Assembly: GCA_012962595.1 (NCBI GenBank)
Contig: DTXE01000220.1
Span: 1-11,608 of the forward strand
DNA: 11,608 nucleotides
Reading direction: 5' to 3'
Source: Syntrophaceae bacterium
GTDB lineage: Bacteria; Desulfobacterota; DTXE01
Shown: one piece after another, positions 989 through 10,203 of the stretch
Numbering within the stretch: the stretch's first letter is position 1
Layout of the letters: every line of letters starts with the position of its first letter
Program-made: the position numbers and the translations under genes
Notes under the pieces: generated by a model
The model's input: only the letters and a program-made list of their open reading frames with translations
Databases searched by the model: none
Told to the model about the DNA's origin: nothing

Positions 989-1993
989 ATGAGCAACACC
1001 AAAAATGTAATCATACTTTTGCTACTTTGCTTCATACTAAGTAGTTGCGCCCCGTTGCAGTCTGCAATAGAGGACAAATTCTTCAGGAAAAGAATAAGGG
1101 GTGGAGAAACTCCCAGAGAATTGGCCAGAGTGGGTATGATCTATTTTCAAGAAAAAGATTATAACAAGGCCATCGAGACCTTTCAGAAGATCAGAGACCT
1201 TCATCCCTTTAGCCCTTACACCATCTTAGCTGAGCTTAAGATCGCTGATTCTCACTATTATAAAAAGGACTATGAGGAGGCACTTGCTGAATATGAAGAT
1301 TTTGAAAAGCTTCATCCCAGAAATGAAGTAGTTCCCTATGTAATTTACCAAATGGGCATGTGTCATTTCAATCGCATGCTTGGCATCGACAGAGACAAAA
1401 CTGCTACTTATGAGGCCTTACAACTCTTTGAAAGACTAGTAAGAACATACCCTAAGAGTAAATATGCTGCCCAAGCCAAGGAACGGATAAAAGAGTGCCG
1501 AGAGGTTTTGGCAAGGCATGAATTTTACGTGGGGAAATTTTATTTCAAGACCAAGCAATATAAGGCGGCCTTAGGGAGGTTTGAGGATATCTTAAGGAAG
1601 TATCCAGATAGTGAACTAAAAGAAGGGGCTATGGAGTATATCAAAAGGTGTCAGATCAAATTAGGTCATATGGCCACCGCTGAGGCATCAACTTCCCAAG
1701 CGTGGATAGAGGATTATTCAGAAAAAAAGCCCGTTATGGAGGAGAGATCTACAAAGCAACCCGCAGAAAAACTGGCTATTAAAGAGGAGTATAAAATAGC
1801 TCCTTGGGAAACTCTGGCAAGGCATGAATTTTACGTGGGGAAATTTTATTTCAAGACCAAGCAATATAAGGCGGCCTTAGGGAGGTTTGAGAAGATCCTG
1901 AGAGAGTACCCGGATACCAAATTAAAGGAAGAGGTTTTGGAGTATATTAATAGATGTAAGGAAGAGCTGGAAAACTATGGGAGTGGCTTCTAA
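989..1993 (+). CDS. bamD: BamD-like TPR outer-membrane lipoprotein with duplicated C-terminal repeat
   Basis: Probable BamD (YfiO), the lipoprotein that works with BamA to insert beta-barrel proteins into the outer membrane. Residues 1-20 form a lipoprotein signal: short basic start, hydrophobic core, lipobox LSSC with C20 as lipidation site. Residues about 44-220 carry consecutive TPRs; the segment from G132-IDRDK through LVRTYPKSKYA and the following LARHEFYVGKFYF resembles E. coli BamD (DRD...LVRGYPNSQY...). BamD is usually about 245 residues, and this one is 334. After a charged linker (about 225-270, rich in K/E/S/T/P) the last TPR is repeated at 276-323. Copy residues 174-199 and 276-301 are identical. 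The start ATG has only a weak upstream Shine-Dalgarno, but the signal peptide supports it. It converges with the actin-like gene, with 35 bases between the stops. BamD identity is likely; the role of the extra repeat is unknown. Confidence 0.82.
   Translation: MSNTKNVIILLLLCFILSSCAPLQSAIEDKFFRKRIRGGETPRELARVGMIYFQEKDYNKAIETFQKIRDLHPFSPYTILAELKIADSHYYKKDYEEALAEYEDFEKLHPRNEVVPYVIYQMGMCHFNRMLGIDRDKTATYEALQLFERLVRTYPKSKYAAQAKERIKECREVLARHEFYVGKFYFKTKQYKAALGRFEDILRKYPDSELKEGAMEYIKRCQIKLGHMATAEASTSQAWIEDYSEKKPVMEERSTKQPAEKLAIKEEYKIAPWETLARHEFYVGKFYFKTKQYKAALGRFEKILREYPDTKLKEEVLEYINRCKEELENYGSGF
1509..1585 (+). repeat. 77-bp perfect direct repeat, copy 1 (inside bamD-like gene)
   Basis: The bases 1509-1585 and 1815-1891 are identical over 77 positions by direct reading, 306 bases (102 codons) apart and therefore in frame. 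This copy encodes residues 174-199 of the TPR lipoprotein, its fifth-TPR-like unit. Identity stops abruptly at both edges. Confidence 0.97.
1815..1891 (+). repeat. 77-bp perfect direct repeat, copy 2 (inside bamD-like gene)
   Basis: Second copy of the repeat at 1509-1585, encoding residues 276-301 in the C-terminal extension. The 66 bases following each copy still align codon for codon, but by my count differ at 19 positions. The perfect block is therefore embedded in an older, diverged duplication. Confidence 0.97.
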
Positions 1994-2028: not shown

Positions 2029-3033
2029 TTACTTGGTAGCCTCCCAGTAGTCTGCAGGCATATCCATGGCAAGTTTAAGGGCCCCTTTGGCACATGCAAA
2101 AACTGGATCATCAACAGTTCTAATATGAACCAAACCTATACTTTCTAATCCCTCCCGAAGCATATCCGGCAATCCCTCTATCTGACTGCCACCACCAGCT
2201 AGATATATATTATCCTTTAAGGTCTTCTGAAACTCAGGGTCGAAAGTAGAAATCATCCTTTTTATATTATCTATAATATCAGGAACAATGCTCTCACACG
2301 CATTTCTTAAATCTTCTGTTACATCGAATACCTCCAGCCTACCTTCTACTGGAAATACTGCCGATACAGATCTGCTCACATTGTGAACGAAGGCATATCG
2401 TTCTTTAATGGCCTGAACCATTCTTTTAGTAAAATTTGCAGCAGGATATCTTGACTTCAATAACCCATAGAAAACTTCATCAATATAATCCCCTGCCTTG
2501 TAAGAGGTAATCTGATCATGCTCTTCGGGTACAGTCCCATGAACACGACAAACATCAATGGTTCCTGCACCGATATCAACCACCAAAGTATTATCCATTA
2601 TCCCCTCATGGTATGCCACAGCAAATGGCTCCGAGACCACCGTCACATTGTCCATAATCTCCTTACTTATGTCAAAAAGCCTTCTCTTGTTTTCATATGT
2701 GGTCTGAGCGGGAACACCAATGATGGCATATACCATGGAATCCTTTTTTACCCCTGCAGAAGTTACAAGATGCTCAAGGAGGTGCTGAGCCATCATTTTA
2801 TCTCGAGCATCGTTCTTAACCACACCTCTCTCCACAGGATGACAAACATTGAGAGAAAGGCGGTGTTTCAAAACCTCCTCCCCAAATAAAAGCTCCCTTT
2901 TTAAAAATCTTTTAGCAATAATATCCTTAGGCCAGCCTGCTACACTGAAAACCATCTTTTCCACCCCGTAACTTGTGACAATCTTGCTTCTATGAGTACC
3001 TAGATCAATTCCCAGATATATCTTGTTATCCAT
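2029..3033 (-). CDS. MamK-like bacterial actin ATPase
   Basis: A filament-forming actin-like ATPase of the MamK branch, expected to polymerise in the cytoplasm with ATP. Actin-fold motifs appear in order: phosphate-1 loop GIDLGT (8-13); V-V-S-E135-P-F, where E135 matches the residue implicated in MamK ATP hydrolysis; phosphate-2 loop DIGAGTID (153-160); and adenosine motif AGGGSQIEGL (279-288). Stretches recalled from Magnetospirillum MamK also match: GTVP..-DQ-T..-KAG.Y.DE (166-186), GWPKDII (33-39), and a C-terminal P..YW (326-330). The length, 334, is close to MamK (about 347), with no truncation. A strong Shine-Dalgarno (GGGGAGGA, 3041-3048) sits 7 bases before the ATG. It follows the coiled-coil membrane protein by 38 bases and ends the operon. 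Motifs distinguish it from MreB, FtsA and DnaK. Magnetosome function is not implied, since no other magnetosome genes are visible. Confidence 0.88.
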   Translation of the reverse strand: MDNKIYLGIDLGTHRSKIVTSYGVEKMVFSVAGWPKDIIAKRFLKRELLFGEEVLKHRLSLNVCHPVERGVVKNDARDKMMAQHLLEHLVTSAGVKKDSMVYAIIGVPAQTTYENKRRLFDISKEIMDNVTVVSEPFAVAYHEGIMDNTLVVDIGAGTIDVCRVHGTVPEEHDQITSYKAGDYIDEVFYGLLKSRYPAANFTKRMVQAIKERYAFVHNVSRSVSAVFPVEGRLEVFDVTEDLRNACESIVPDIIDNIKRMISTFDPEFQKTLKDNIYLAGGGSQIEGLPDMLREGLESIGLVHIRTVDDPVFACAKGALKLAMDMPADYWEATK

Positions 3034-3071
3034 AAAATTTTCCTCCCCATCTTATGGAAATAACCTGGCTC

Positions 3072-4106
3072 TTATCTTTTTGATTTCTGCAAGATGGCAC
3101 TATGCTTGGAAGTTATGGCATTCAATCTCTCAACAGCCTTTTTGAGTTTTGCCAGCTCCGAGCCTGTTCCATATAGTTGTTTGGACTGATCGTCGCTCAT
3201 TTGAATTAACTCAGCAATCCCACCATCTATGTTATTTAACCTCCTCTCCTGCGTGGAAATCTTCTCTTGAGTCATTTCAAGGTCTGATTCCAAACGCTCT
3301 AAGACATCCTGCAGGGTACCCACATGTATCCTTATATTACGAATCTCCCTTTCCCCACTTCTCAGACCTTCTTCTAACGACGCCATTTTTGGAATATACT
3401 CATTTATAGCCTCTATAGTCTTGCTGCTATTGCTTATCTCCTTGCGCAATGCATCTATACCTTCCAATCTTTCATTGAACAATTCTCTGTTTTTATCTGA
3501 TGCCGCTTTTAGTCTGGCAATTTTCCCTTCCACCATCCTGTTAGTGTGGTATTGAAAAAACCATCCCACTCCTAAGGCAACAGCCAATAAAATAAAGACG
3601 AAGATGTTTATAATACCCAGTTTTTTAAGACTCTGGGTTCCTTTGAAGGGCCATAAGAGGCTAACTTTCTCAAGCTTTTCCGTCAAATCCCCAAGGCGTT
3701 TTTCATGTTCATTAACGGTGTTTTGGACCTCTGAAAGATTTGTGTGATTTGATACATCTTGGAGATGGGAAATCCGTTTAGAATTTTCCTCAAGTTGTGA
3801 CTTCAATTTTGATATCTCTGCCATCAAGGGCTCGGCAGCTTCCCCTTTCACTCCTTGCAACTGATCTGCAAGTCCTGAAATACGATTCTCTTGAGACTGG
3901 ATAGCATTCTGCAATCTATCAACGTTGGCCTTTAATTCCTCTATTACAGTCTTGTATGACACCCCTTCAGATATTTGATTTTTAAGGGCATCTATTAATT
4001 CTCTCTGAACATTCATTTCCTTTAACATATCCCAAAGGGGGTCTAGCTTATAGGACTTTGATCTGGCCACTTCAGCAAAGTCTCCGGATTTATTGGAGTT
4101 TATCAT
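3072..4106 (-). CDS. Single-span membrane protein with coiled coils on both sides
   Basis: Not recognised as a named family. The 344 residues have a short N-terminal region (1-50) with a conserved-looking hydrophobic patch (L21-D-P-L-W-D-M-L), then heptad-rich coiled coil at about 52-148. One transmembrane helix follows at about 164-185 (I-N-I-F-V-F-I-L-L-A-V-A-L-G-V-G-W-F-F), then a second long coiled coil at about 186-340. There is no signal peptide and no enzymatic motif. K161-K162 before the helix is compatible with a cytoplasmic N-terminus, but R190/K195 after it make topology uncertain. The start is supported by GGAGGA at 4115-4120, 8 bases upstream. It lies 49 bases after alaS and 38 before the MamK-like gene, so the two are likely co-transcribed. 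From context I infer an anchor, adaptor or regulator for the actin filament; chemoreceptor or SMC/chromosome roles are not supported by any domain. Confidence 0.8.
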   Translation of the reverse strand: MINSNKSGDFAEVARSKSYKLDPLWDMLKEMNVQRELIDALKNQISEGVSYKTVIEELKANVDRLQNAIQSQENRISGLADQLQGVKGEAAEPLMAEISKLKSQLEENSKRISHLQDVSNHTNLSEVQNTVNEHEKRLGDLTEKLEKVSLLWPFKGTQSLKKLGIINIFVFILLAVALGVGWFFQYHTNRMVEGKIARLKAASDKNRELFNERLEGIDALRKEISNSSKTIEAINEYIPKMASLEEGLRSGEREIRNIRIHVGTLQDVLERLESDLEMTQEKISTQERRLNNIDGGIAELIQMSDDQSKQLYGTGSELAKLKKAVERLNAITSKHSAILQKSKR

Positions 4107-4108
4107 AA

Positions 4109-4120
4109 GGGTCTTCCTCC
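4109..4120 (-). promoter_or_regulatory. Strong Shine-Dalgarno leader of the coiled-coil gene
   Basis: On the minus strand the leader reads GGAGGAAGACCC, then TT and the ATG. The same 12 bases occur directly before the recA ATG (7828-7839). The purine-rich core is a near-ideal ribosome binding site and fixes the start of this gene. Confidence 0.75.
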
Positions 4121-4155: not shown

Positions 4156-6801
4156 TTAAGAAGATTTATATTCCGAGATTATAGTGTAGGCGGCATCGAG
4201 GGCTTCGGATAATCTTTGGGGCTGGATTCCGCCTGCCTGTGCCATATCAGCCTTACCTCCTCCTCCACCACCCACTATCTGTGCTATTTTACCTATGATA
4301 TGCCCTGCATGATAAGAATTTATAAGGTCTTTGGTAACTGCTGCCACCAGCAACGCCTTTCCATCAGCCTCTCCACCCAGAACCACAATTCCTGACTTAA
4401 TTTTATCTCTCAACCTATCTGCCAGACTCCTAAGCTCCTTTTCACTACCTACTGTAACTTTAGCAGATACTACAGAAATTCCTCGGATGTGCTTCACGTG
4501 TTTTAAAATATTCTGGGATTCATACACTCTCAAGTGCCTTTTTAAGGATTCTAAGTCCTTCTCTAATTGCTTCTGATAAGCTAATAATCTCTCAACCTTG
4601 TCTGCCACTTCTCCTACGTGGGCTTTAACCATGTGGCCAATTTTTCTGAGCACCTCCTCATCTTCCTGAACCTTGTGAAGGGCCACTTTCCAAGTTAGGG
4701 CCTCAATGCGCCTTATACCTGCTGCCACTCCGGTTTCACTTACAATTTTAAAAAGACCAATATCCCCTGTCCGTGAAACGTGGGTACCTCCACATAACTC
4801 ATGACTGAGACCTGGTATTTTTACCGAGCGAACCACCTCATGGTATCGTTCCCCAAATAAGGCTGTGGCACCTTGTCTTAAGGCCTTCTCTAACTGTGTA
4901 ATTTCTACCTCCAAAGGAATATTTTGGCAAATCTTCTCGTTTACCAAGGCCTCGATCTTTCTCAAATCCCCTCTCTTTATAGGGGAATAATGGGTAAAAT
5001 CAAATCTCAGTCTATCAGGAGCTACCAGAGAACCCGCCTGTTTCACATGATTGCCCAAAAATTTTCTTAAGATGGCGTGAAGGATATGGGTAGCTGTATG
5101 ATTCTTCTTGACTGCCTCCCGTCTTTCCTTATCGATAGACAGTTTAACCATATCTCCCACACGTATCTGGCCCTTCTTGACCTCTCCTTTATGAACTATT
5201 AAATCTTCTTCTATTCTCACGGTATCTTTGATTTCTATAACAAGATCGCCATTACCTATCCACCCCGTATCTCCTACCTGACCACCTGATTCACCATAAA
5301 ACGGTGTCTGTTCCACAATCACCTCTACTTTATCCCCTGTCTTGGCCTGAATAACCTCCTGACCATTCTTTAGGATAGAGAGAATTCTAGATGTATCCTG
5401 TTCCTTATCATACCCCATGAATCTGGAGGAAATCCCCCGAGAGAGGAGTCCTTGGTAATATTCTGGGACTTGCTCACTCTTGGTCTCTCTTAAGCGCCTC
5501 CTAGACCTCTCCTTCTGTTCCTTCATCAGGGCATGGAAACCTGCTATGTCCATGGCAAGCCCTGTCTCATAGACCACATCAGAGATGATATCAATAGGAA
5601 AGCCGTAGGTATCGTAGAGTTTAAAAATAACACTGCCCGGTATTTCCTTTAGGCCTTTTGACTTCAATTCCTCAACAGAGTGATTAAGAATCCTCAAACC
5701 ATAATCTAAGGTTTCCGAAAATCTTTGCTCTTCATGGAGGACCACTCTCGAAATTACCTCCCTTGCAGATAGCAAATCGGGGTAGCTTTCCTTCATCACA
5801 TCTAGTACTACACCTGCTGTTTTGTGAAGGAATGGGCCTTCTATGTTAAGTGTCTTTCCATGACGGATAGCACGCCTGATAATGCGTCGAAGAACATAAC
5901 CACGTCCTTCATTAGAAGGTAAAATACCATCGCTTATGAGGAAGGCAATGGCTCGACTATGATCAGCAATAACCCTGATAGAGATATCATGGGCTTCCTG
6001 TTTGTCAAACCTCTTTTTGGTCAGCTGCTCAATAAAGCTCACGATGTCACGGAAAAGATCTGTATGATAGTTGGATTTAACACCTTGAAGAACACAGGCA
6101 ATTCTCTCTAAGCCCATTCCGGTATCCACACCTGTTTTTGGAAGAGGGGTCAGTGCCCCATCTTGGTCTCTATTGAATTCCATAAATACCAGATTCCATA
6201 ATTCCAAAAATCTATCGCAATCACAACCTATCCCGCACCCTGGTCTCTTACATCCAAATTCCTCCCCTCGATCAATTACAATCTCAGAACAAGGGCCACA
6301 AGGTCCTATCTCCCCCATAACCCAGAAGTTGTCTTTTTCACCCATAAGGGCGATATGGTCCTGGGGCACGCCCATCTTGTCTTTCCAAATCCTATATGCC
6401 TCATGATCTTCCTTAAACACTGTAACCCATAGCTCATGCACAGGGAGACCCATTTTCTTGGTCAATAACTCCCATGCAAAATATATGGCTTCCTCTTTGA
6501 AGTAATCTCCGAAGGAGAAGTTCCCTAACATCTCAAAAAAGGTGTGGTGACGGGTAGTCCTCCCCACATTCTCAATATCACTATGCCTTCCTCCAGCCCT
6601 GAGGCACTTCTGAACAGATACCGCTTTGGTGTAAGGTCTCTGCTCTTGACCCAAAAAGACCTTTTTGAATTGAACCATACCTGCATTGGTAAATAAAAGT
6701 GTGGGGTCATCAGAAGGAACCAATGGGGAACTTCTAACTACCTTGTGACCTTGCCCCTTAAAATAATTCAGGAAACACTCTCGTATTTGATTACTGGTCA
6801 T
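4156..6801 (-). CDS. alaS: Alanyl-tRNA synthetase
   Basis: Charges tRNA-Ala with alanine and hydrolyses mischarged Ser/Gly-tRNA-Ala. All family modules are present in 881 residues (usual 860-890). The class II catalytic core has RHHTFFEMLGNFSFGDYF (84-101) and GMGLERI (228-234). The editing domain zinc/active-site motifs are HTATH (568-572) and CGGTH (670-674). A coiled linker is at about 715-765, and the C-Ala domain carries a glycine run GGGGGGK (844-850). Between motifs 2 and 3 there is a cysteine cluster: C168, C171, C184, C189, C193, C195. The ATG lies 3 bases after the recA stop. The nearest good Shine-Dalgarno (6824-6832) is 22 bases upstream, within recA, too far for ordinary use. Translation is probably coupled to recA. 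The start is nevertheless right, because MTSNQIRECFLNYFKGQGH aligns with normal AlaRS N-termini. There is no recX between the two genes. Confidence 0.98.
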   Translation of the reverse strand: MTSNQIRECFLNYFKGQGHKVVRSSPLVPSDDPTLLFTNAGMVQFKKVFLGQEQRPYTKAVSVQKCLRAGGRHSDIENVGRTTRHHTFFEMLGNFSFGDYFKEEAIYFAWELLTKKMGLPVHELWVTVFKEDHEAYRIWKDKMGVPQDHIALMGEKDNFWVMGEIGPCGPCSEIVIDRGEEFGCKRPGCGIGCDCDRFLELWNLVFMEFNRDQDGALTPLPKTGVDTGMGLERIACVLQGVKSNYHTDLFRDIVSFIEQLTKKRFDKQEAHDISIRVIADHSRAIAFLISDGILPSNEGRGYVLRRIIRRAIRHGKTLNIEGPFLHKTAGVVLDVMKESYPDLLSAREVISRVVLHEEQRFSETLDYGLRILNHSVEELKSKGLKEIPGSVIFKLYDTYGFPIDIISDVVYETGLAMDIAGFHALMKEQKERSRRRLRETKSEQVPEYYQGLLSRGISSRFMGYDKEQDTSRILSILKNGQEVIQAKTGDKVEVIVEQTPFYGESGGQVGDTGWIGNGDLVIEIKDTVRIEEDLIVHKGEVKKGQIRVGDMVKLSIDKERREAVKKNHTATHILHAILRKFLGNHVKQAGSLVAPDRLRFDFTHYSPIKRGDLRKIEALVNEKICQNIPLEVEITQLEKALRQGATALFGERYHEVVRSVKIPGLSHELCGGTHVSRTGDIGLFKIVSETGVAAGIRRIEALTWKVALHKVQEDEEVLRKIGHMVKAHVGEVADKVERLLAYQKQLEKDLESLKRHLRVYESQNILKHVKHIRGISVVSAKVTVGSEKELRSLADRLRDKIKSGIVVLGGEADGKALLVAAVTKDLINSYHAGHIIGKIAQIVGGGGGGKADMAQAGGIQPQRLSEALDAAYTIISEYKSS

Positions 6802-6804
6802 ATG

Positions 6805-7827
6805 TTAAGCCGATTTGGCCTTTTCCTCCTTTAATAGACCAAAATGGGCCATAAGTTTCCTTTCTATGTCATCCATCATTTCAGGGTGTTCTTTAAGATA
6901 GTTCCTTACGGTCTCTCTACCTTGTCCAATCCTTTCTCCACCATAGGAATACCATGAGCCGCTTTTTTCCATGATGTTAGTGCTGATTGCCATATCCAAA
7001 AGATCGCCTGCTTTAGATATACCCTGTCCGTACAAGATATCAAATTCTGCCTCCTTAAATGGAGGGGCCATCTTATTTTTGACCACCTTTACCCTGGTTC
7101 TATTTCCGATTACATCTGCTCCCTCCTTGATGGGGCCAATCCGCCTCACATCCAACCTCAAACTGGCATAGAATTTAAGGGCCATCCCGCCGGTAGTGGT
7201 CTCAGGATTTCCCATAAAGCTTCCAATCCTCATCCGTGTTTGATTGATAAATATAACAGAGGTCATAGATTTGCTAATATTAGAAGTTAGCTTCCTTAAG
7301 GCCTGGGACATAAGCCTAGCCTGTAAGCCTACATGTTGATCGCCCATGTCTCCCTCAAGCTCTGCCCGGGGAACCAGTGCGGCAACCGAATCTATAACCA
7401 AGGCATCAACTGCACCAGATCTAACAAGTATATCGGCGATTTCCAAGGCCTGTTCACCGGTATCCGGCTGTGAGACCAAGAGGTCATTACAATTTACCCC
7501 TAATCTCCTGGCATAGTTCACATCCAAGGCATGTTCTGCATCGATGAAGGCAGCAACGCCCCCTTTTTTCTGGGCCTCCGCCACAATGTGCAGGGCAATG
7601 GTGGTCTTTCCAGAGGCCTCTGGACCAAATATCTCGGTAACTCTTCCCCTGGGAATACCTCCTATTCCCAGTGCAATATCTAAGGAAACTGCACCTGTAG
7701 GTATCACTGGGATGTCTACGATTTGACCTTTGCTACCTAGTTTCATAATAGACCCTCTCCCAAACTGCTTTTCGATTTGGGTAAGGGCTACATCAATGGC
7801 CCGCTCTCTATCCGAAGATGCACTCAT
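6805..7827 (-). CDS. recA: Recombinase RecA
   Basis: ATP-dependent strand-exchange protein of homologous recombination, and co-protease for LexA-type repressors. The 340 residues show the N-terminal oligomerisation helix, Walker A GPEASGKT (68-75), Walker B region [11 protein letters not shown] (141-151), DNA-binding loop L2 with GNPETTTGG (206-214), and the family signature ALKFYASLR (216-224). It has a typical basic C-terminus, slightly shorter than E. coli's acidic tail. The start has the strongest ribosome site in the right arm (AGGAGG, 5-7 bases of GACCC spacing), suggesting higher translation than its neighbours. Only 21 bases separate it from thpR, leaving no room for a promoter of its own there. 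I see no E. coli-type (CTGT-N8-ACAG) or Bacillus-type LexA box directly upstream. Damage control, if any, would act from further upstream or through a lineage-specific box. Confidence 0.99.
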
Positions 7828-8415: not shown

Positions 8416-9646
8416 CAATCAGGTATCTTCTCACCCAATCAAGGGCATACTCAGAGGCTATAATCTTTATACTTTCACGGGAACCTTGGAATCTAAATCC
8501 CCTGGCCACAGTGGCCCTACTGGTAGACATACCCATAAAAACCGTTCCTACAGGCTTTTCATTAGTGCCTCCAGTGGGTCCCGCTATACCTGTCACACTG
8601 AGGCCCAAATCGGCTCCGCTACTAATCCTTATATTCCTTGCCATCCATTCAGCACACTCACCGCTTACCGCACCATAATCCTCCAGCACCTTCTTAGGAA
8701 CCTTCAATAACTCCTCCTTAGAGCGATTACTATAAACCACCACATCTCGATCCAGATAATCTGAACTCCCAGGAATATCAGTTATTCTATGCCCGATTAG
8801 GCCTCCGGTGCAGGATTCAGCGATAGCAAGAGTAAGTCTCCTAGACCTCAAAAGGTGACCTATAACTTCCTCCAAGGTCTGGCCATTCCGTCCAAAGACA
8901 TAACTACCCAATCTCTTCCTGATAGCCTCTTCAGTCTCTCTCAGTTTATCCTGTGTCTGCTGAAACTCTTTGCCTCTCACAGTAATGATAATATGAGTTT
9001 CCGGGAACCTAGGCAGGAAACTGATGGTAACCCCCTTTTGCTCTTCCCCTATCCCCTGGCAAAGTTGGTTAACCTTGGTTTCTTCCAAACCGAAAACCTT
9101 AAGAATGCGCTCTTTAATATATGTTCTGTGGGACATCTTATCTAGAAGGCCAGGTATAACATGGCTATCGAGCATATTTCTCATTTGTTCAGGCACTCCT
9201 GGTAGAAAGAACAGTGGTTTTTCATGGTGAATGATGAAAAAACCACAAACATGATGCACAGGATCAATGACTTCTGCCCCTTGGGGTAGCAGAGCAAGCT
9301 TTTGATGCTCGGGGGTCATAGCTATACCTCGATCTCTAAGTGAGCTTTCTAGTCGACTCAGTATATCAGCATTTTGAACAAGTGGCCTTTCAAGGGTCTT
9401 AGCAATAATCTCAGTGGTTATATCGTCCGAGGTAGAACCCAGACCTCCAGTTATTATAGCAAAATCGGAGCGTGCAATGGCACATCTTAGGGTAGACTCG
9501 ATGGTGCTAGCCTCATCCCCTATTATGGTTATACCTCTAACATAAAATCCTGCCAGTGTCAGCCTGCGGGCTGCATAGCATCCGTTGAGATCAGAAACTT
9601 GACCTGTTACAAGCTCATTCCCAATAACTATAATTTCACCTCTCAT
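8390..9646 (-). CDS. cinA: CinA: nucleotide pyrophosphatase/NMN deamidase two-domain protein
   Basis: A full-length CinA-family protein (418 residues, usual 410-425). The N-terminal MoaB/MogA-like COG1058 domain (about 1-165) contains GNELVTGQ (9-16), TGGLGSTSDDIT (66-77) and LPGVPEQM (148-155). In characterised members it hydrolyses ADP-ribose or related pyrophosphates. The C-terminal PncC domain (about 255-410), which deamidates nicotinamide mononucleotide, has AESCTGG (276-282) and VTGIAGPTGGT followed by KPVGTV (351-369). The common GLGPT appears here as GLGST, a mild variant. Whether both activities are retained cannot be told from sequence. The ATG lies 2 bases after the pgpA stop with no Shine-Dalgarno, so it is probably translationally coupled. 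The name comes from competence-induced Streptococcus; no competence genes are present here. The cinA-recA neighbourhood is widespread in bacteria. Confidence 0.96.
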   Translation of the reverse strand: MRGEIIVIGNELVTGQVSDLNGCYAARRLTLAGFYVRGITIIGDEASTIESTLRCAIARSDFAIITGGLGSTSDDITTEIIAKTLERPLVQNADILSRLESSLRDRGIAMTPEHQKLALLPQGAEVIDPVHHVCGFFIIHHEKPLFFLPGVPEQMRNMLDSHVIPGLLDKMSHRTYIKERILKVFGLEETKVNQLCQGIGEEQKGVTISFLPRFPETHIIITVRGKEFQQTQDKLRETEEAIRKRLGSYVFGRNGQTLEEVIGHLLRSRRLTLAIAESCTGGLIGHRITDIPGSSDYLDRDVVVYSNRSKEELLKVPKKVLEDYGAVSGECAEWMARNIRISSGADLGLSVTGIAGPTGGTNEKPVGTVFMGMSTSRATVARGFRFQGSRESIKIIASEYALDWVRRYLIDDTLLFSY

Positions 9647-9648
9647 GA

Positions 9649-10143
9649 CTAATGCCAGAAATGAAGAATTATCCTCTGAGAAAGATTGGCATAAATGCCG
9701 GCCATCACATCATCCAAGACTACTCCATAACCCCCGGAGAGTCGCAACTGGATAAGGCGGATGGGAAATGGCTTTGCAATGTCAAAGAACCTAAATAGTA
9801 AAAAGCCCAAGAATATATTCCTCCATGTAGCAGAGAACTGAAACATAGTCACTAAATAACCTAGAACTTCATCAATAACAATATGGGGGCTGTCCCTCTG
9901 ACCCAGTATCTGCTCTGCACGCCCGGAAACGAAGCATGCCAAAACCAAAATGCCCAATACCGTGAAGCTATAAATATATATTATATCGAGAGAAGAAAGA
10001 AGGACAAATAGCAGAATACCCACAAGTGTGCCAGCAGTACCAGGTGCTATAGGAGAGTAGCCTGCATAGGCTCCAGTGGCAACAAAAGTAACTACTCGTC
10101 TCACTGGCTTACACCCCAGATGCAAGAGTACAATCTGCACCAT
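9649..10143 (-). CDS. pgpA: Phosphatidylglycerophosphatase A
   Basis: An inner-membrane lipid phosphatase converting phosphatidylglycerol phosphate to phosphatidylglycerol. Family signatures align with E. coli PgpA: ATGAYAGYSPIAPGTAGTL (22-40), the acidic IVIDEVLG, FRFFDIAKPFPI, and GGYGVVLDDVMAG near the C-terminus. Hydrophobic membrane segments separate them, including about residues 36-70. The longest frame opens with ATG at 10143 (164 residues), and I keep it as the outer boundary. However, its purine tract (AAAGG) touches the ATG. A GTG at 10104 is better placed: it has GGGGTG (10112-10117) 7 bases upstream and would give a 151-residue protein beginning shortly before the conserved block. 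A promoter-like sequence also points to the later start. The gene lies 60 bases after larC and 2 before cinA. Confidence 0.95.
   Translation of the reverse strand: MVQIVLLHLGCKPVRRVVTFVATGAYAGYSPIAPGTAGTLVGILLFVLLSSLDIIYIYSFTVLGILVLACFVSGRAEQILGQRDSPHIVIDEVLGYLVTMFQFSATWRNIFLGFLLFRFFDIAKPFPIRLIQLRLSGGYGVVLDDVMAGIYANLSQRIILHFWH
10112..10117 (-). promoter_or_regulatory. Shine-Dalgarno favouring the GTG start of pgpA
   Basis: GGGGTG on the minus strand, 7 bases before GTG 10104-10102. The same hexamer serves larC (11394-11399). It supports the shorter pgpA product over the ATG at 10143. Confidence 0.45.
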
Positions 10144-10153
10144 CCTTTGTCAA
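10125..10153 (-). promoter_or_regulatory. Possible sigma-70 promoter at the start of pgpA
   Basis: The minus strand has a perfect TTGACA (10148-10153), a 17-base spacer and TACTCT (10125-10130). The -10 box matches the TATAAT consensus at only three positions. Transcription would start a few bases further on, around 10115-10120. That would exclude the ATG at 10143 but leave GTG 10104 with at most a very short leader. It could supply pgpA-cinA-thpR-recA-alaS independently of larC. Sequence-only call. Confidence 0.3.
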
Positions 10154-10203
10154 GGACTATTGTTGAAGGCCCCTGCCCTTACCACGTAGCCAGAATTTAG
10201 GCT

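Follow-up and report, generated by a model that had tools for sequence, protein, structure and literature searches.

What would an actin of the MamK type, a family studied mainly as the actin of magnetosomes, do at the end of a housekeeping gene run, beside a gene for a membrane-spanning coiled-coil protein? The question is raised by a contig (C220) of a Syntrophaceae bacterium, analysed here over its entire length of 11,608 nucleotides (hereafter, the window) and belonging to a genome of 2.09 Mb in 564 contigs that is 91.25% complete. An initial annotation, made from the letters of the window, had proposed a membrane-anchored filament system that positions an organelle, an envelope complex or a polar structure, possibly as an ancestor or relative of the magnetosome cytoskeleton.

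The locus and its two genes

Both reading frames named in the initial annotation are present on the minus strand. One encodes the MamK-subfamily actin of 334 amino acids (2029..3033) and the other its partner, a putative membrane adaptor of 344 amino acids (3072..4106) with a coiled coil, a transmembrane (TM) helix and a second coiled coil, an assignment that draws on the reading frame, six homologues and their alignment, TM and heptad analysis, and a profile match to a coil-TM-coil protein of a sister clade, f17. Upstream lie alaS (4156..6801, minus strand), an open reading frame named AlaS through its homologues (53-57% identical where named, a few closest unnamed ones aside, among the 120 matches listed), and, by eye, a recA-like reading frame (6805-7827). 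Transcription runs from the recA-like gene through alaS and the partner to the actin; 49 bp separate alaS from the partner and 38 bp the partner from the actin. The pair does close a housekeeping run after alaS, as had been described. The named AlaS homologues carry the labels Desulfobacterales, Thermodesulfobacteriota, Deltaproteobacteria, Syntrophobacterales and, in some cases, Pseudomonadota, and for each of the 58 other genomes drawn as closest to the host the label goes no further than a shared phylum; the host would therefore be a deep lineage, belonging probably to the Desulfobacterota side. Ribosome-site-like sequences precede the partner (GGAGG, 4116..4120) and the actin (GGGGAGG, 3042..3048), both on the minus strand. 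Among the part of the window's reading frames scanned by eye, no mam-type gene other than the actin was seen, in agreement with the earlier description. The neighbours on the opposite strand are a thioredoxin-reductase-like reading frame (by eye; cut by the contig end) and the gene of a BamD-type lipoprotein (window 989-1993, plus strand), which carries an internal near-exact duplication, LARHEFYVGKFYFKTKQYKAALGRFE occurring twice. Elsewhere in the host genome, contig C178 (L118) holds by eye a pilMNO/PQ-like run; type IV pili are possible and, if made by the host, would be a possible client of a polar scaffold.

The signatures on which the initial annotation based its MamK assignment are all found in the actin: S134-E135-P136, DIGAGTID, AGGGS, GTVPEEHDQITSYKAG and a C-terminal DYWEATK. 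Homology to the MamK of PDB 5jyg is beyond chance (E 3e-77), and 2083 proteins are homologous at E<=1e-3. The assignment to MamK is borne out by the NCBIfam model NF040964, on which residues 5-332 score 409.5 bits against a curated cut-off of 400, and by the MamK fold of the predicted model, to which both Foldseek and VIA-align match 5ljv first, at an rmsd of 1.4-1.5 A across 324 columns/residues. Viral contigs scanned with the actin and with the partner gave no match, and a contig scan across genomes returned one planctomycete locus.

Three other actin classes were considered and rejected. BeeR identity fails on its model (195.3 against a cut-off of 530 bits) and on the absence of the 30-50-residue N-terminal extension, the window actin beginning MDNKIYLGIDLG. 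The NCBIfam mreB models score below their cut-offs (71.1 against 293, 51.2 against 365.75 and 43.5 against 515 bits), whereas Pfam MreB_Mbl is passed (71.6 against 27) as a superfamily match; an MreB-like actin is encoded elsewhere in the host genome (L117), by eye with an MreC-like gene after it. Mad28 is described, in the pertinent passage of PMC10653835, as having S for D in phosphate-2 and no EP signature in connecting region 1, unlike the window actin with its DIGAG and SEP.

For the partner, the succession of coiled coil, single membrane helix and second coiled coil proposed earlier is supported by hydropathy and heptad analysis: there is a single hydrophobic helix at residues 163-183 (3558..3620, minus strand; Kyte-Doolittle hydropathy 2.49), and a heptad-like hydrophobic periodicity on either side is equalled by 2/1000 and 0/1000 shuffles. 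In a search of 5.8 billion proteins the partner has six homologues besides the window's own protein (49-84% identity), and 111 of its 344 positions are invariant across the seven sequences; it is a conserved gene. At 1e-8 it is absent from all other genomes among the 395 sampled in the phylum. Six of the seven family members (P0005 being contrary) carry a more positive net charge ahead of the TM helix than behind it, as do all four f17 coil-TM-coil proteins. Since the charge is more positive ahead of the helix, by modest differences, an N-in topology is favoured, and therefore residues 15-34 would be cytoplasmic and residues 265-310 periplasmic. The former (4005..4064, minus strand; RSKSYKLDPLWxxLKEMNVQ in part) have 17 of 20 positions invariant in the seven sequences and form a candidate actin-docking segment; the latter (3177..3314, minus strand) form a predicted periplasmic conserved coil with 35 of 46 positions invariant. 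AlphaFold's model of the partner alone is nearly all helix; its confidence is very low (pLDDT 42), it offers no usable fold, and it was set aside as evidence. No RodZ-type match to the partner was found among the best 25 of 69 and the best 25 of 34 rows. A second partner-like gene lies at the end of host contig C81 (L116:10301-10571); it begins with a similar block, MAPSNKSRDLADIARAKSYKFDPL, adjoins an AAA ATPase gene that stands before it, and is cut by the contig end.

How far the gene order extends to relatives was judged by matching contig sizes. AlaS and partner are linked in this way on two contigs (11012 and 8776 bp) and AlaS and actin on one (9518 bp), which is suggestive of a conserved alaS/partner/actin order but is not proof of it. 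Among the 120 actins and 120 AlaS proteins listed, size-matched contigs place partner and actin together in no relative, and the most distant partner homologues (P0006, P0007) have no actin from their contigs among the 120 listed.

The sister clade provides another view. Among the f17 actins, the members P0011-P0017 are 59-62% identical to the window actin, and the window actins group with the f17 actins at a support of 100/100. All four f17 genomes have a gene for a coil-TM-coil protein of 603-663 amino acids, then a 117-aa gene, then the actin (split in two frames in G147), and three of them, whose contigs extend far enough, show neighbours other than those of the window. Profile comparison of the f17 protein with the window partner gives a score of 53.5 (probability 89.7%), against 16-17 for reversed controls, at most 29.9 for 30 block-shuffled ones and at most 31.4 (hhalign) for 13 other coil-rich proteins of MamK loci, which were rejected as relatives of the partner. 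It is around the TM helix that the match is strongest, with 36.8 (probability 69.6) for the TM helix and C-part by themselves, 26.2 (7.2) for the N-parts and 14.3 (0.4) for the post-TM coils by themselves. The two proteins are probably homologous. A coil-TM-coil gene near the actin, the kind of co-occurrence for which the initial annotation proposed a search, is found in the sister clade too.

MamK-type actins with and without magnetosome markers

The sample of the phylum comprised 395 genomes, the host included, and the MamK family, called at 1e-50, is present in 15 of them (13 passing the cut-off). A magnetochrome domain over its cut-off is found in four of these 15 (G350, G004, G041 and G209), with a single sub-threshold match in G300 (E 0.009) and none in the host genome at 0.01. 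The same four genomes match the MamB model at E<1e-69, although none of the genomes searched passes its strict cut-off; the ten other MamK-bearing genomes reach at best 9e-42, and the host has no match at 1e-20 and no candidate at all, in a search that found CDF transporters in 14 of the 14 other genomes. By eye, other magnetosome-type genes also lie close to mamK in the four, and CDF genes there are best matched by MamB or MamM in the two loci scanned. These absences leave ten relatives and the window host with a MamK-type actin free of magnetochrome and MamB markers. The genome-wide scan for magnetosome genes suggested by the initial annotation therefore returned none in the host for the two families searched, and as far as these families go the window system appears not to be magnetosomal. 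In Planctomycetota, MamK-family actins at 1e-50 occur in 77 of 199 genomes (53 over the cut-off), and of these MamK-bearing genomes at least 2 of 77 have magnetochrome, with up to 89 candidates scored in some large genomes.

At 9 of the 11 marker-free loci of the phylum, a protein whose hydrophobic window exceeds 1.7 is encoded next to the actin or one gene away (the window, four f17, two f64, the f7 and one f77 locus), against a background of 73 of 190 local reading frames; the second f77 locus (1.65) and f34 (1.48) fall below. The f64 and f77 loci have a coil protein with an N-terminal TM helix between two actins, and these partners share a C-terminal GSHYLPxxVVRN; the flanked coil genes are at L055:9842-10324, L056:3300-3788, L057 (about 9600-10180) and L058 (about 9260-9830). 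At the loci of two other families of the phylum, f7 and f34, the actin reading frame as called is overlapped by a gene that encodes both an N-terminal tail and an amidase domain (L061:7786-8940, L062:600-1880). The f34 protein passes the Pfam Amidase_3 cut-off, and the f7 protein has matches at 4e-34 to NCBIfam models of N-acetylmuramoyl-L-alanine amidases that stay below the cut-offs of these models; the stretch after the tail reaches a hydropathy of 2.27 in f7 and, below threshold, 1.48 in f34, whose actin is cut by the contig end.

Could actin and coiled-coil protein be accidental operon neighbours behind recA and alaS that do not interact, the partner being a lone envelope protein? The contigs of P0006 and P0007, which have no actin among the 120 listed, would fit such an accident, as would the paralogue of the partner's N-terminus on C81, with no actin in view up to the point where the contig ends inside the gene. 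We nevertheless consider it unlikely, given that all four f17 genomes have a probably related coil-TM-coil gene close to their actin in a genomic setting unlike that of the window, and that at most of the 11 marker-free MamK loci a partner with a hydrophobic helix is encoded close by.

Unlikely too, in our judgement, is a role of the pair in placing an organelle or storage body within the cytoplasm, in the manner of magnetosomes and with the membrane protein residing on that organelle. The function of the MamK family speaks for it, as do the coil/actin networks that organise magnetosomes in RS-1, according to the relevant section of PMC12748827, and a weak encapsulin-type match in the f17 genome G147 (25.2 against a cut-off of 24.3). 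In the host genome, however, the magnetosome markers searched, BMC shells and encapsulins are all without a match, and the f7/f34 partner is a homologue of wall amidases. For an organelle, one of the targets that the initial annotation had considered, no candidate was found in these searches.

The phylogeny bears on the origin of the window actin. From a family set of 177 rows (the actins L042 and L043 removed as truncated and L083 as a duplicate, L048 replaced by the right G209 copy, and 7 MreBs kept) we built a quick tree of 81 rows and a careful tree of 53; the 28 rows left out of the latter include BeeR, G209a, P0120 and the second f77 copies, dropped for their long branches. The magnetosome MamKs, of which five were sampled in a tree with long branches, fall in two places: those of AMB-1 and G209 with f64/f77 (99/79), and those of G350, G004 and G041 near Planctomycetota (86/89, weak). 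No bootstrap tree of 200 unites the five, and the AU test rejects a single clade of them (p 7.9e-13) as well as a clade of the five together with the window and f17 actins (p 9.9e-10); the AU tests were done after the quick tree had been seen, with groups defined by gene content. When only strongly supported branches are considered, the quick tree forces two origins and the careful tree is compatible with a single one. The closest group to the window clade is that of the non-magnetosomal f17 actins (100/100), outside both magnetosome groups, and the sampled magnetosome MamKs are not one clade; the idea of the window system as an ancestor of the magnetosome cytoskeleton is not supported. That it is instead the remnant of a lost magnetosome cluster, mamK and adaptor alone surviving from a magnetotactic ancestor, fits the patchy spread of MamK (15 of 395 phylum genomes at 1e-50, four with magnetosome markers) but is highly improbable, since the window clade stands apart from the sampled magnetosome MamKs and most MamK-bearing genomes of Planctomycetota show no magnetochrome (75 of 77, with the candidate numbers given above).

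A motif in the partners of MamK

The proteins encoded upstream of MamK in Planctomycetota differ; there are coil-rich ones and one with a GGDEF domain (Pfam). By eye, 23 of 30 such loci contain the motif x-[LFM]-[LM]-x-x-[IL]-[FLV]-x-x-N-[LVR]-x-L-[RQK]. A matrix of these 23 instances was tested on 40 further loci, fetched afterwards from 39 genomes that were all outside the training set. Scores of at least 8 (in fact at least 14.6) were obtained on the coding strand in 28 of the 40, which are not 40 independent cases because some are near-copies of each other. At the same threshold, the antisense strand yielded 2 hits in 40 loci (10.2, 9.1) and the regions upstream of MreB genes 1 in 24 (10.0); among the seven non-training loci of the original 30, four score above 22 and three do not. 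The distance from motif to stop is 2-28 residues in 18 of the 28 and 89-214 residues in the other 10. G431 and G587, the planctomycete genomes with magnetochrome, each have the motif upstream at a mamK locus (L155 26.9, L124 27.7). In L088, upstream of a planctomycete actin, the Asn motif is in tandem repeat, GLVQENAKLRETPRGGQR..., which suggests a possible multivalent filament binder.

Outside the Planctomycetota the motif had already been noticed by eye in the f34, f7, G350 and G004/G041 genes, none of them in the training set. A matrix of 53 planctomycete instances (one identical and one near-identical motif copy left out) was run on 75,717 fifteen-residue windows from the reading frames of 18 loci in the phylum of the window, which was itself among them. 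The best scores are those of the f34 amidase at residue 15 (15.4) and the C-terminus of the G350 partner (14.5), followed by the partner C-termini of the congeneric G041 and G004 (11.6) and a coil protein of the G041 locus (10.3). The 23-instance matrix also ranks f34 and G350 first and second, with G041/G004 only seventh and eighth. The motif genes of f34, G350, G041 and G004 lie directly upstream of mamK, three of them at magnetosome-type loci. The f7 amidase copy aligns with that of f34 by eye and scores only 3.2, and f77 has a weak look-alike (1.3 and 4.8). The window partner reaches at best 1.3, a score attained by 582 of 2000 shuffles, and its conserved segment ranks 36 of 330 positions; the matrix likewise did not find the motif in the f17 and f64 partners or the G209 neighbour. 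The motif therefore characterises only some members of the family, and the window itself contributes no evidence for it.

The motif may bind the actin. A WH2-like nature, which its LLxxI pattern might suggest, finds no support in Pfam: the WH2 model gave no row for seven motif-bearing partners at E up to 10 (for two of the seven, among the best 25 rows), in a search whose HMMER filters drop weak matches. In the open-licence PMC literature we found no MamK docking motif, and no non-magnetosomal MamK with an amidase or membrane coiled-coil partner. The motif is the more surprising part of this study, more so than the window pair itself.

A probable tethered filament and its known counterparts

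Taken together, these results make it reasonably probable that the pair is a non-magnetosomal MamK-type filament with a dedicated membrane adaptor that tethers it to the envelope, and the membrane-anchored filament system of the initial annotation is plausible. Going by family and fold, the actin would polymerise in the cytoplasm. The partner would sit in the inner membrane with its N-terminus inside; on the cytoplasmic side its invariant segment SKSYKLDPLWxxLKEMNVQ would bind the filament, and on the periplasmic side its coiled coil would bind a component of the envelope or cell wall. The filament would in this way position or hold an envelope complex. The system is real and conserved, and it combines a MamK-type actin that, by the marker searches above, lies outside magnetosomes with a membrane-spanning partner peculiar to its lineage.

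Tentatively, and with somewhat more doubt than confidence, we extend this to MamK-type actins at large. They may be a general, mostly non-magnetosomal cytoskeleton, coupled by a docking helix in the partner (xLLxxIFxxNLxLR) to very different clients, which would include coiled-coil membrane proteins, a GGDEF protein, a peptidoglycan amidase and magnetosome proteins; magnetosomes would have captured it at least twice, and the window pair would be a trans-envelope version whose docking segment has diverged or been replaced by SKSYKLDPLWxxLKEMNVQ. The results suggest that the filament of the magnetic organelle is part of a broader bacterial cytoskeleton. Should these actins, paired with dedicated partners in the membrane or among the wall enzymes, also serve bacteria that are not magnetotactic, then the magnetosome chain apparatus would look recruited from an older envelope or positioning system.

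The nearest prior work, from the parts of these sources that concern MamK, is that on BeeR (PMC11929497) and an abstract line on "MamK actin-ancestors" in Planctobacteria (PMC7203096). BeeR (PDB 8r2n) is described in the former as a MamK relative of unknown function in non-magnetotactic Verrucomicrobiota. In this it resembles the window actin, which is 27-29% identical and lacks the N-terminal extension. Planctomycetota MamKs from magnetotactic bacteria are mentioned in a passage of PMC10653835, and the existence of further MamK partners is inferred in one of PMC11628618. The magnetosome MamK of AMB-1 (PDB 5jyg/5ljv) is of the same subfamily and fold as the window actin, which differs in falling outside both magnetosome groups of the tree, in its TM coiled-coil neighbour and in a host genome that is marker-free by the searches run. 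Within the same broad phylum, RS-1 combines actin-like and coil proteins (PMC12748827, PMC12713370): coiled-coil Mad proteins work with MamK and Mad28, and its coiled-coil magnetosome proteins are predicted without TM helices (PMC12748827), unlike the window partner.

Closest in gene arrangement are the adaptors MamJ, MamY and the MamJ-like proteins. Mg-1g50 of MV-1 (PMC10653835) and the MamJ-like protein of G2-11 (PMC9938234) are presented in the passages devoted to them as products of genes on the upstream side of mamK, with an adaptor role, that ordinary whole-protein searches missed. The window partner shares the upstream position and is similarly hard to recognise by homology; it differs from MamJ and MamY in its coil-TM-coil architecture, and the likeness is one of gene position and recognisability rather than of compared MamJ or MamY sequences. 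RodZ, known in complex with MreB from PDB 2wus, spans the membrane and binds a bacterial actin in the cytoplasm. The window actin is not an MreB, and the comparison is one of how the two pairs would work: as MamJ or MamY does with MamK, or RodZ with MreB, the partner would link its filament to the membrane.
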